Source of the DNA: Candidatus Gastranaerophilales bacterium
GTDB lineage: Bacteria; Cyanobacteriota; Vampirovibrionia; Gastranaerophilales; Gastranaerophilaceae
Direction of reading: 5' to 3'
Length of the DNA stretch: 64,000 nt
Assembly (NCBI GenBank): GCA_016280955.1
Contig: JAEEHV010000023.1
Span: 1-64,000 of the forward strand
Shown here: positions 4,101 through 51,992 of the stretch, piece by piece
How positions within the stretch are numbered: position 1 is the first letter of the stretch
How the letters are laid out: each line of letters opens with the position of its first letter
Made by a program: the position numbers and the translations under genes
The notes under the pieces: generated by a model
Seen by the model: the letters and a program-made list of their open reading frames with translations, nothing else
What the model was told of the DNA's origin: nothing
Databases searched by the model: none

Positions 4101-7100
4101 ATATTACAATGGGAATCACAAACGGTGTGTTAACTCTTGATTCAAACTGCTGCTGGATAGAAGGAAGTATTCCGAACCATTACGGTGTAACCTTCGATAC
4201 TAAGCAAATGACCTGGACACACGGTGCAATTACAACACAAAGTTCAGCTCCTATCACATACAAGACCAGCAACGGCGATTATATCAAAGATACATTCACA
4301 CAGAATGATTGGAATGGTACAAACAAAAACATTAAGATTGTATATGAGCAGCTTAACCACGATAATCATACAGTCACAACAACAACAGTTAATACAACCC
4401 TTACAATTACAGACAATACAAAATTCAAAGACACCAGTGAATCTGAAATCATAGTTGACGGTGTATTGAAAAAAGGTGCATCATTAGCTACCGAATTAGC
4501 CAGATACGGTATAACATTAGATGTTAAGAACGGTATAGTAACCTTAAATTCAGACAGAGTAGCAGCAGACAGCAACCAAATGTACTATGCTCTGGGTGCT
4601 GTAATAGACCATGTTGGTTCAAAAGTTGATTCGTTTACTCAGACCTGGACACTTAGTACAGCAGAATCCAGTGGTGCTAATGTAACGTATGATATTAAAG
4701 GTACGGATAAAATCGCAGATACGTTCTCCTACAATTCCGACTATAATTATCACGGTATAGATAACACTAACTGGTCTGAGATTAACCATGATATTGTAGT
4801 CAGATATTCTTACCTCGACCATGATACACACCAGACTGTTACAGTTGCAGCTTCAACAATTACCGTCGATTATGAAACAAGATTAACTGATAATTACGAT
4901 TCAAGTCTTAAAGTAAACGGTGTTACAAAAACCGGTACTTCACTTGCAAAAGCATTAAGTGATTATGGTATAACTTTGTCCGTTTCAGGCGGTAAAGTTG
5001 TCATGAGTTCTGCTAAAGGACCTGACGGACACATTTACTATATAACCGGTGACATTCCTGACCACTATGGTATATCCGCAATGGAATTAGGCAGAGTAAG
5101 TCAGAGTTGGACATTTGGTACCGATACAACTGGTGTTTCTTCACAATTTGCCGGAAGCGGCGGTTCTCCCGGAAGCGGTATTCAGTATGACGACTATATC
5201 AAAGATACATTCTATGAAGATGTTTGGAAAAATAGTACAAACAAAAATATAGTAATCAAATATTCTACACTTGTTCATAACGGAACAAGTGCATCTACAA
5301 CAGTACTTATAACAGCAACCATTACGGCAACTGATACAACCAAATTCGGTCAGGATGTAGACTCAACTGTTATAGTAAACGGTCAAACAAAAAATGGTAA
5401 ATCTCTTAAAACAGCTTTGGCTGATTACGGCATTACTCTGACTATTGAAAATGGTGCCGTAAAAATGGCATCTGATGCTATTGGAACACAAGTTACCGGC
5501 GGTGTAACTCATCAGGCTATTTGTTATGCAACAGGTGATATTCCTGACCACTGGGGTATTTCAGCTACAACCTACGGTACTATTTCACAAACCTGGACTT
5601 ATGCAACTGATAATACATCAACCAAATTATACAAATATTTAATCAGAGATGATGACTTTGTTCAGGATGTGTACACTGATGAGGATTGGGCAGCTGTAGA
5701 CAAAACTATTTATGTAAAAAGTTCTTATTTTGATGTCAATAGAGGTGTCGCCGTTACTACAATCTTGGGTACAATGACACTGACGGATACTACTAAATTT
5801 GGTGAAGATGTAAACTCATCAATTATAGTAAACGGTCAAACAAAAACCAAAACATCACTTAAAAAAGCATTGGCAGACAATTTCAGCATTACCATGAATG
5901 TAAATAGTAACGGTACTATAGCAGTAAGTTCTGCACCGCATTCAGACGGTAATATCTATTTTATAGACGGTGTTGTTACAAATGGTTTAGGCTTCCAAAA
6001 TACAACAACAGACCAGACATGGATATATGGAACCGATGTTACAGGCATATCCGGTATATATACAGGTGGTACCGGCGATGGTCCTACTGGCGGTACAGGT
6101 ATCCAAATGGATGACTATATCAAAAACTCTTTCTCTAAGAGTGAATGGACAAATGTCGATAAGAAAATAGTTGTCAAATATGAATCACTTATACAGACTA
6201 GTACAAGCAGTACAACAATACTGGCTACGGCAACTATGACAGCAACGGATACAACCACATTCCAGGGCTTGGCTGATTGGCTTAGCGGTTATGGTATATC
6301 TTTAACTATTAAAAACGGTGCCGTAACAATGAGTTCTAAGGCTCAGAATATCAGAACCGTTGATGGTGTACAATATCAGGATATCTTCTTTATGACCGGT
6401 GCAATTGCCGATCACTGGGGTGTTTCTGCTCCGACATACGGAGCTGTCAGTCAGACCTGGACATCCAATACAAGTACCACCTCCGGAGAAAACAAATATA
6501 GAATATATATAGATGACTATATTCAGGACAAGTATAAAGATGCAGAATGGGCAAGTAAAACTACTGAGCAAAAGACAGTTTATATCAAAACTTCATCGTA
6601 TGATGTTGGCACCTTAACAGAAGGAACAGAGACTAAAGCATCATTTGTAATAACAGATACCACCAAATATTCTGATTTACAAACATTCCTTGCAAATTAT
6701 AACATAACCATGACAATAAACGAGAGTAATGGTTCATTAAATATAAGTTCAACACCGAAAGACGGTGTAATATATTTTGCAGACGGTATAGCTACTTCTG
6801 TTATTAAAGATTTGGGCTTTGATGTTTCAAAAGCAAGTCAAACCTGGACATACGGCACAGATGCAACCGGAACAACTCCTGTAACCTTCAAAGCAAGGAG
6901 AGGAACAGACCGTATTTCCGATACATTTACTAAAGCTAACTGGAATGTTACAAACAAAGAACTGATTATCAGACATGACGAACGTGACCATGCTAATGGA
7001 ACCACCAAAACAACTCATGTAGCACACTATACAGTTACTGAGACTACAACATTTGACGATTTAGATACCTGGCTTACTGCAAACGGTATCTCTATGTCAC

Positions 7101-48760: not shown

Positions 48761-48824
48761 TTTCAAATTATAACAATTTTTAATATTCTATTGACAAAAA
48801 CTAAAATTTCAACAATAATGATAA

Positions 48825-48839
48825 TGATAATAATTATCA
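48825..48839 (+). promoter_or_regulatory. Fur/PerR-type operator (7-1-7)
   Basis: TGATAATAATTATCA, exact inverted heptamer repeat; TTGACA at 48791. Confidence 0.85.
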
Positions 48840-48856
48840 TTATGGGAAGTGAGATT

Positions 48857-49297
48857 ATGAGGAACTCAAAGCAAAAAGATATAATTTTGCGTGCTTTAGA
48901 TGAGCATAAAATTCATCCGACAGCTGATGAATTATATCAATATATTCATAAAGAGCATGCCGAAATCGGTGTTGCTACAGTATATCGTAATCTTAATAAG
49001 TTTGCTGAAAAAGGAATTATACGAAAAATTGTAGGTTTAGACGGTTCTTCTCATTTTGACAGCTGCCTTGAACCGCATTATCACTTTATTTGCAGTTGCT
49101 GCGGAAAAATTTATGATATTCCAATGAATATTGGAAAGGACTTGATTGCCAAGGCAGAAGAATTTACGGACTGTAAAATAACTTCAATGGATATAACCTT
49201 CAGAGGACTTTGCAGAAAATGCGAAGACGAACACAACGGTAATTTTGTTTTTGATGAAAAAGAAACAGAAATGTTGTTAACGGCAAGCATGTCTTAA
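48857..49297 (+). CDS. Fur-superfamily regulator, PerR-like
   Basis: HPTADELYQYIHKEHAEIGVATVYRNLNKFAEKGIIRK..SSHFDSCLEPHYHFICSCCGKI..CRKC; real start 48857 downstream of operator. Confidence 0.88.
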   Translation: MRNSKQKDIILRALDEHKIHPTADELYQYIHKEHAEIGVATVYRNLNKFAEKGIIRKIVGLDGSSHFDSCLEPHYHFICSCCGKIYDIPMNIGKDLIAKAEEFTDCKITSMDITFRGLCRKCEDEHNGNFVFDEKETEMLLTASMS

Positions 49298-49339: not shown

Positions 49340-49368
49340 TTGAAAAAATAAACCTGAAATGTTATAAT
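49340..49368 (+). promoter_or_regulatory. sigma70-type promoter of pfl operon
   Basis: TTGAAA (49340-49345), 17-bp spacer, TATAAT (49363-49368). Confidence 0.65.
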
Positions 49369-49410: not shown

Positions 49411-51504
49411 ATGATAACAATGGAAGAAGAAAGTACCGAAAGATATTCCACAACAGAATTTATTGGCGGTAAATGGCAAAAAGAGATTAATGTAAGGGAT
49501 TTTATACAGAAGAACTATACACCGTACGATGGTGATTCAAGTTTTTTGGCAGAACCTACAGAAGCTACCAAAAAATTGTGGGAAGAATGCTGCGAATTAT
49601 TCAAGCAGGAACGTGAAAATATGGGTGTTCTTGATATGGATACAAAAATCGTATCTACAATAACTTCTCACGAAGCCGGATACATTGATAAACCGCTTGA
49701 AAAAATTGTAGGTTTACAAACTGATAAACCGCTTAAACGCGCACTTCAACCGTTTGGCGGAATAAGAATGGCTGAAAGCGCATGTGAAGCTTATGACTAT
49801 AAGGTTGACAGTGAAATCTCCGAGATTTTCAGAAAGTACAGAAAAACTCATAATCAGGGTGTATTTGATGTTTATACACCTGAAATGCGTGCGGCTCGCC
49901 ATGCAGGAATTTTAACAGGGCTTCCTGATGCGTACGGCAGAGGAAGAATTATAGGTGATTACAGAAGGGTTGCTCTTTATGGTATTGACAGATTAATTGA
50001 AGATAAAATGGAGCAGCATGCCTCTGTCCACGGTACAATGACACCTGAAAAAATACAATTAAAAGAAGAACTTGCAGAGCAAATCAGAGCACTTCATGAA
50101 ATGAAGGAGCTTGGTAATATATACGGTTTGGATATTTCAAAGCCTGCAAGAAATGCACGAGAAGCTGTTCAATGGTTATATTTTGGTTACCTGTCAGCAG
50201 TAAAAGAACAAAACGGTGCTGCTATGAGTATCGGAAGAACTTCTACCTTCCTCGATATATTTATTGAAAGAGATTTGCGTGACGGTATTATAACCGAAGA
50301 AGAGGCTCAGGAGCTTATAGATCATTTTATTATGAAGTTAAGATTGATAAAGTTTGCAAGAACTCCTGAGTATAACGCACTTTTCTCGGGCGATCCGACG
50401 TGGGTTACGGAATCTATCGGCGGAATTGGTGTTGATGGCAGACATATGGTTACAAAAAACTCCTTCCGTTATCTTCACACACTTGAAAATCTCGGAACAG
50501 CACCTGAGCCAAATTTAACAGTTCTTTGGTCAACAAGATTGCCGCAGAACTTTAAACAATATGCAGCACATATTTCTATAAAAACATCATCTATTCAGTA
50601 CGAAAATGATGATATGATGCGTCAGGTTCATGGTGATGATTATGCAATTGCCTGCTGTGTATCTTCAATGGTAGTCGGTAAAGAAATGCAGTTCTTTGGT
50701 GCAAGAGCAAACCTTGCAAAATGTTTGTTGTATGCAATTAACGGCGGTGTTGATGAAAGACTGAAAGAGCAAGTAGGACCAAAATACAGACCGATAACTT
50801 CAGAATACCTTGATTATGATGAAGTAATGGAAAGGTATGACAGCATGCTTGATTGGCTTTCCTGGTTGTACGTCAATACTTTAAATGTTATTCATTATAT
50901 GCATGACAAATATTGTTATGAACGTGCTCAAATGGCACTTCATGACAGGGATGTAAAAAGGTATTTTGCAACAGGTATTGCCGGCTTGTCGGTTGTTGCC
51001 GATTCACTTTCAGCAATTAAGTATGCAAAAGTTAAAACAATACGTGACGAAAACGGTATAGTTGTTGATTATGAAGTCGAAGGAGATTACCCCAAATACG
51101 GAAACAACGATGACAGAGTAGATTCTATTGCAGTTGATATTGTTCATAAGTTTATGAACATGATACGAACTCATGAAACATACAGAAATTCAATTCCTAC
51201 AATGTCGATTCTGACAATTACATCAAATGTTGTTTACGGAAAGAAAACAGGCTGTACACCTGATGGCAGAAAACAAGGTGTTCCGCTTGCCCCGGGAGCA
51301 AATCCGATGCACGGACGAGATACAAACGGTGCTGTTGCATCTCTTGCATCCGTCGCAAAACTTCCGTTTGCAGATGCGCAAGACGGTATATCAAATACCT
51401 TCTCAATTATTCCAAATGCTTTGGGTAAAGATGAAGTATTTATGGGTGATTTGGATATTTCACTTGACTGCGGTTGTTGTGAAGGGGTTAAAGGACTTGA
51501 ATAG
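49411..51504 (+). CDS. pflB: pyruvate formate-lyase catalytic core lacking the C-terminal glycyl-radical domain
   Basis: [50 protein letters not shown] (CC active-site pair); ends after [11 protein letters not shown]. Confidence 0.93.
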
Positions 51505-51525
51505 ATAATATAAAAGGAGAATAAA

Positions 51526-51939
51526 ATGATAACTCAACAGGAAGAAAATTTAATAAATTTACTTGACGGATATGTAGAAAAAGGCGGACACCATCTTAAT
51601 GTCAATGTATTTAACAGAGAAACTCTGCTTGACGCACAGGCACATCCGGAAAAATATCCGCAATTAACCGTTCGTGTTTCAGGATATGCAGTTAATTTTA
51701 TTAAGCTTACAAAAGAGCAGCAGGATGATGTAATCTCAAGAACATTCCATTCATCTTTAGGTTCAGCACAGGTCAGTCAGCCGATTGAAACAAAAGCTGA
51801 AGAAAATCTTGTTGAATATACCCCTGTTGAAGAATCTCATACAGCACCAAGAACAAGTGTCGGGACAATGTCTATGCCGTCAGATTTTTCACGAAAAGCT
51901 CAGGAGAATATTCAGGAAAAGATTCATGTTCATATATAA
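51526..51939 (+). CDS. separate glycyl-radical domain subunit of pyruvate formate-lyase, with extra C-terminal tail
   Basis: [62 protein letters not shown] upstream. Confidence 0.92.
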
Positions 51940-51957
51940 GAAAAATCATTTAATACA

Positions 51958-51992
51958 AAAAAATACGATATCTGCTGATATCGTATTTTTTT
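51958..51992 (+). terminator. Rho-independent terminator of pfl operon
   Basis: AAATACGATATC-tgct-GATATCGTATTTTTTT. Confidence 0.9.

Follow-up and report, generated by a model that had tools for sequence, protein, structure and literature searches.

Two adjacent genes encode the parts of one pyruvate formate-lyase

The window, by which we mean the whole 64,000 nt stretch of DNA analysed here, encodes the catalytic core of a pyruvate formate-lyase (PFL) and, directly 3′ of it, a separate small protein that carries the glycyl-radical site (Table 1). The original prediction, made from the sequence alone, described a 697-aa core with paired active-site cysteines and a radical domain in its own 137-aa ORF, and both were found as described. 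The core reaches 1139.8 bits with TIGR01255, above the cut-off of 994.2, and 746 bits with PF02901. The spacer reads TAG ATA ATA TAA AAG GAG AAT AAA ATG, also as predicted, so that the two ORFs share a frame, two in-frame stops lie between them, and the Shine-Dalgarno sequence AAAGGAG is positioned six bases before the ATG of the small ORF. One detail needed correction: the core had been said to end directly after a given motif, whereas a 24-aa tail follows.

When aligned to Escherichia coli PFL, the core corresponds to residues 13-679 and the small ORF to residues 682-758, which indicates that the fission removed nothing. The PF01228 (Gly_radical) domain is divided correspondingly, with model positions 2-49 located in the core and positions 52-106 in the small ORF. 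Because the core matches this model only to position 49 and the remainder resides on the next ORF, the pair is better described as a two-subunit PFL than as a standard PflB. The small ORF scores 160.5 bits against NF038360 (GrcA3; cut-off 158) and 94.5 bits against TIGR04365 (GrcA/YfiD), where the cut-off is 170.

A Fur/PerR-family gene lies directly 5′ of the core, as it does in three related loci (L065, L069 and L087), and its product may control the operon in response to O2/peroxide or metal. The number of promoter-like sites around the locus, including the one listed in Table 1, is not above that in shuffled sequence. No terminator-like site was found in the spacer between the core and small genes. 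The hairpin 3′ of the small gene was missed by the terminator scan because it is GC-poor.

Table 1. Features of the split PFL locus in the window, followed by third-protein ORFs in the clostridial loci named
Feature	Position	Strand	Remarks
Fur/PerR-family regulator gene	48791..49297	+	PerR/Fur models 72-85 bits, below equivalog cut-offs
Promoter-like TTGAAA-17-TATAAT, 5′ of core gene	49340..49368	+	11/12; consensus match only
PFL catalytic core, 697 aa, without radical hairpin	49411..51504	+	TIGR01255, PF02901
Active-site Cys415-Cys416, IACCVSSM	50653..50658	+	Equivalent to E. coli C418/C419
Core C-terminal tail, 24 aa	51430..51501	+	VFxGDLDI part and CGCC Cys motif
Stop codon and spacer	51502..51525	+	In-frame TAG, TAA; Shine-Dalgarno AAAGGAG
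Glycyl-radical subunit, 137 aa, GrcA3-type	51526..51939	+	NF038360; PF01228 positions 52-106
Radical residue Gly53 of RVSGYA	51682..51684	+	Equivalent to E. coli Gly734
Radical-subunit C-terminal extension, 62 aa	51751..51936	+	Variable linker, then conserved motif
MSMPSDF motif, end of small-subunit linker	51868..51888	+	Conserved with relatives
AT-rich terminator-like hairpin and T-run, 3′ of small gene	51957..51992	+	-17.5 kcal/mol
Third-protein ORF, L121	3684-3890		
Third-protein ORF, L124	5665-5871		
Third-protein ORF, L136	5758-5976		
Third-protein ORF, L130	5728-5955		
Third protein 3′ of small gene, L122	within 6108-6425		

An activase but no second PFL was found in the genome

The original prediction called for a search of the genome for an intact PFL and for the activase gene pflA. 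The assembly that includes the window (2.78 Mb, 97.5% complete) holds no second PF02901 protein, the single match being the split core, and no intact PFL was found in it, so that the main result capable of overturning the prediction did not appear; at this level of completeness there remains a small chance that one was missed. The only other PF01228 match in the genome is the anaerobic ribonucleotide reductase NrdD, whose gene adjoins that of NrdG. An activase is present, unlinked to the core and small genes: PflA is encoded at C70:20245-20940 and scores 302 bits with TIGR02493 (cut-off 231.75). The genome carries one copy of the small-subunit gene.

The split is conserved and is shared with Clostridia

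Among 34 genomes of the genus, that of the window included, 32 have the small ORF and 31 the core. Wherever both ends were sequenced, the two occupy separate frames and are never fused. Only one of 23 further genomes searched at the level of order or class (G044) returned a match, and that match is fused. When 84,980 species genomes were scanned, 542 relatives emerged, and a separate small ORF is present in all of the best 80 of these, which include Ruminococcus (among them sp. YE71 and an R. flavefaciens MAG), Lachnospiraceae and Oscillospiraceae. The split, whose conservation had been proposed as a check, thus holds in nearly all congeners and is not confined to the window locus; it is a property of a PFL lineage common to Ruminococcus and other Clostridia.

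We also examined 196 Clostridia genomes drawn evenly from the class of Ruminococcus sp. YE71. Eleven encode a standalone radical subunit with a score of 154-169 bits, and every fused PFL scores below 142 bits. No fused PFL occurs among the matches listed for these 11 genomes. Split and fused PFLs coexist in another Clostridia genome (G063). In loci where the core is nearby, the spacers between the core and small genes range from 10 to 464 nt and fall in all three frames, which excludes read-through or a single sequencing error as the source of the arrangement. One locus (L071 2772-6001) has 3.2 kb between the two genes. The order core-small-pflA is observed in many split loci, though not in the window. 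Ruminococcus sp. YE71, which carries a split PFL, is an organism with a sequenced genome.

Both PFL parts are under strong purifying selection. Compared with congeners, omega is 0.04-0.08 for the core and 0.01-0.05 for the radical domain, and mostly 0.1-0.37 for the C-terminal extension of the small subunit. The retention of the divided arrangement in relatives and the constraint on both parts bear out the proposal that this is a genuine natural split. GrcA-like radical domains are also encoded in 1543 phage records, the best being 83% identical to that of the window; several of these records are short, unannotated and from human faeces.

The new ends carry conserved motifs

At the junction, fused clostridial PFLs read ...ALGK-xxxxxxNLxxLLDGY..., whereas split cores read ...ALGKD-xVFxGDLDI... 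and then stop. The start of the small protein therefore coincides with the former junction, and a new tail has been added to the core. The VFxGDLDI sequence is found in nearly all split cores and is absent from the fused PFLs compared. In Gastranaerophilales the core tail also bears a CGCC cysteine motif, which in the window takes the form SLDCGCCEG. The small protein of the window and those of its near relatives share an SVGSMSMPSDF-type motif after a variable linker. In six relatives that lack this motif, the core tail is long and contains YMTPL(I/M); none has both.

When the E. coli core is cut at residue 695, binding of YfiD is undetectable and activation is reduced 32-fold; the recognition element was proposed to consist of residues 696-733 (PMC8683613). 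A core that ends near 680 must therefore hold its partner in another way. We infer that, in split cores devoid of the 696-733 stretch, the best candidate to replace this recognition element is the new core tail, joined in Clostridia by an additional small protein.

A third small protein accompanies the split PFL in many Clostridia

The long clostridial spacers owe their length to an additional ORF of about 65-80 aa, with the pattern ...(E/D)LxxxIDxLMxxGxGHxNI...STDCxGxKGACCQPTE (Table 1). In two cases (G219 and L122) this ORF is located 3′ of the small gene instead, which identifies it as a gene rather than a leftover of the fission. A terminator in the long spacers was considered and rejected, as only one of the 17 that were folded (L141) has a strong hairpin followed by a run of T. 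The third protein lacks the glycyl-radical loop but has a C-terminal cysteine motif. It matches no Pfam or NCBIfam family, apart from a weak GrcA3 match over its first ~28 residues only, and has no meaningful match in the PDB. Positions ~5-38 of its profile recur, weakly but systematically, on GrcA3 and on the radical domains of fused PFLs. This recurrence points to probable homology between the first half of the third protein and the helix-strand located before the glycyl loop in the radical domain.

A full-length third protein is encoded by five of the 196 Clostridia genomes, all of them within the 11 that have a split PFL (Fisher P 2e-7, not corrected for relatedness). Where the third protein is present the core tail has no cysteines, and where it is absent the tail mostly has them (23 and 44 loci). 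Both elements occur together in 0 loci and neither occurs in four, one of which has a broken reading frame. Moreover, the cores of L171, L173 and L174 end in an LDCxxGACSxPTLFEGLD-like sequence that corresponds to the cysteine half of the third protein. On the tree, the presence and absence of the third protein require only two changes rather than many independent events, and mutual exclusion of the third protein and the core-tail cysteine motif is accordingly suggestive.

These patterns raise the prospect, which we consider unlikely, that split PFLs are multi-part glycyl-radical enzymes with a dedicated non-radical partner element. The third protein (DC..KGACCQPT) may occupy the slot of the radical subunit, either as a placeholder or in the second protomer of a half-of-sites dimer; alternatively, it may guide loading of the radical subunit. 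The core tail of the window (LDCGCCEG) would be the same cysteine element in cis, and this element on the core tail could serve as a redox or metal switch that signals acceptance of a fresh radical subunit. When the L136 core and its third protein were predicted as a read-through chain (38 rows), pLDDT was 55.9 and pTM 0.49, with the core itself unfolded.

Origin of the split PFL

The split PFLs group as a single clade (94/80) in a tree built on the core together with the radical domain (61 rows and 518 columns), and a single change accounts for them in 92% of bootstrap trees. The Gastranaerophilales-type group (100/98) is placed beside the clostridial split PFLs, and the fused PFL of G044, from the same order as the window, falls outside the split clade. 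The simplest reading is that there was probably one fission followed by horizontal transfer into Gastranaerophilales, for which the support of the tree is good but not decisive. The single gene fission would have lost nothing and gained a new conserved core tail, and the split design would have spread among gut Clostridia and Gastranaerophilales. Gut cyanobacteria would on this reading be recipients of a fermentation enzyme that was probably acquired horizontally.

A probable obligate two-subunit enzyme

The features described above make it very probable that the locus encodes an obligate two-subunit PFL, with the small subunit docking where the radical domain of a fused enzyme would be. Weighing against this reading are the poor performance of the truncated E. 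coli core and the presence of both PFL types in G063. We used AF2 to model a read-through chain composed of the core, an 8-residue spacer and the small protein (57-row alignment), which gave a mean pLDDT of 74.9 and a pTM of 0.81. The model matches 2PFL in Foldseek over 774 columns with a TM of 0.91 by target length, which suggests that the small subunit can occupy the radical-domain position of a fused PFL; the confidence is moderate, and a tethered single chain aligned with fused homologues favors canonical docking. Confidence is low over the C-terminal extension of the small subunit.

How the split PFL would assemble, acquire its radical, act and exchange its subunit we infer as follows. 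The large subunit would provide the pyruvate/CoA site and the cysteine pair, and the small subunit would complete the barrel with its helix and beta-strand and contribute the Gly53 loop. PflA, encoded elsewhere, would generate the glycyl radical on the core-bound small subunit. The radical would then pass from Gly53 to Cys416/Cys415, with catalysis proceeding as in a fused PFL.

Fermentation in gut anaerobes depends centrally on PFL, an enzyme that O2 destroys at the glycyl radical. A likely benefit of the split is that cleavage by O2 would cost the cell a small, cheap subunit and not a full-length chain. The small subunit may even be a disposable cartridge that is swapped after O2 cleavage, with spares expressed under stress. 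This YfiD-like rescue made obligatory would refine rather than compete with the two-subunit reading, and we judge it to be possible, although slightly less probable than not. What makes exchange plausible is that congeners can carry a further small gene that is not linked to the core: 13 of the 34 genus genomes have at least two small genes but only one core (some cores being broken over contig ends), as opposed to the single small gene in the genome of the window. A Crp/Fnr-type regulator divergently adjoins the small gene in nine of 18 inspected loci that have the small gene only (L081, L082, L085, L086, L088, L092, L093, L112 and L115), although the regulator assignments here and for the Fur/PerR-family gene 5′ of the window core are below NCBIfam equivalog cut-offs. 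Ferritin is adjacent in two of these nine (L112 and L115), and a D-2-hydroxyacid dehydrogenase is encoded near the small gene in L082, L085 and several other orphan loci. The neighboring genes of the orphan loci and of the window fit with oxygen or redox control but prove nothing.

The membership of the small ORF in the NCBI family named ‘autonomous glycyl radical cofactor GrcA3’ could be taken to mean that it serves purely as a GrcA-type spare part of some other glycyl-radical enzyme, the core being inactive or having another role. We rejected this reading as very improbable, since the single PF02901 match leaves no other PFL-like enzyme in the genome to be served, the small gene adjoins the core and is conserved with it, and the core retains its cysteine pair under strong constraint. 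A decaying or disrupted PFL pseudogene, or an assembly error, might also account for the two in-frame stops that separate what E. coli makes as one chain, but this has a negligible chance of being correct: the split is kept over the genus and in a second phylum, with spacers and frames that bear no relation to one another, omega is far below 1 in both parts (0.01-0.08), and the small ORF has its own Shine-Dalgarno sequence. A true nonsense case looks unlike the window. In Ruminococcus sp. YE71, a second glycyl-radical enzyme (L198 2028-4529) contains one in-frame TAG (GSSAS*GADKNGPTAV), directly before the radical domain, with coding that continues across it and an activase next door; an independent split of this enzyme was considered and rejected in favor of a single nonsense codon. 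Equally hard to credit is the production of a fused protein in vivo by stop-codon read-through or frameshifting, which the shared frame of the window ORFs would allow but which was rejected on the basis of the two stops in the spacer and the long spacers of relatives, which lie in all frames and can hold a whole extra ORF.

Comparison with known systems

The obligate two-subunit PFL proposed here aligns end to end with E. coli PflB (TIGR01255; 2PFL, 1H16) in its core, cysteine pair and radical domain, and its AF2 model superposes. The E. coli enzyme is one chain, whereas that of the window is cut between the equivalents of ~679 and ~682, and it differs further in the new tail of the core and the C-terminal extension of the small part. 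Standalone radical domains that act on a PFL core are likewise known from GrcA/YfiD of E. coli and Y06I of phage T4 (PMC8683613, 6OWR), and as of 2021 these were the only validated spare parts (PMC8683613). YfiD, whose disordered N-terminus spans 60 residues, rescues full-length PFL that has been cleaved by O2. In contrast, no intact PFL was found for the small subunit of the window to rescue, and its presence is predicted to be essential from the outset. The name of NF038360 implies a spare part, but in the split-PFL genomes examined here it is the sole source found for the PFL radical domain; its member in the window carries a 62-aa extension. The GrcA-type annotation should therefore change within the split-PFL lineage, from spare part to required subunit.

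An NCBI family for the small subunit (GrcA3) is already known. Among open-licence papers we found none on a naturally split PFL and none that names ‘GrcA3’, which does not prove their absence. The recent PDB entries 38la and 38lb, both titled ‘Formate acetyltransferase’ (687 and 739 aa), have chains that match no radical domain and that stop at, or run past, the end point of split cores. The chain of 38lb continues as NVMFGECDMCEMKELD, which bears cysteines like the split-type tails. No GrcA3-like chain was found in either entry, and the two may be natural split cores or constructs. The existence of these entries and of the GrcA3 model indicates that others are probably studying split PFL. The freshest element is thus the third small protein beside the split PFL in many Clostridia. 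Split PFLs provide natural material on how a separate radical domain is recognized, loaded and activated, and because a simple cut works poorly in the truncated E. coli PFL/YfiD system, the core tail and third protein make the mechanism directly testable.

Glycyl-radical enzymes with extra small cysteine-containing subunits include benzylsuccinate synthase and 4-hydroxyphenylacetate decarboxylase. Unlike in split PFL, the radical domain of these enzymes stays on the large subunit. The split class II ribonucleotide reductase of Pseudomonas aeruginosa (PMC4520616) is, like the PFL described here, a radical enzyme that is naturally made as two polypeptides, although the enzyme and the radical are different and the likeness is one of analogy only.
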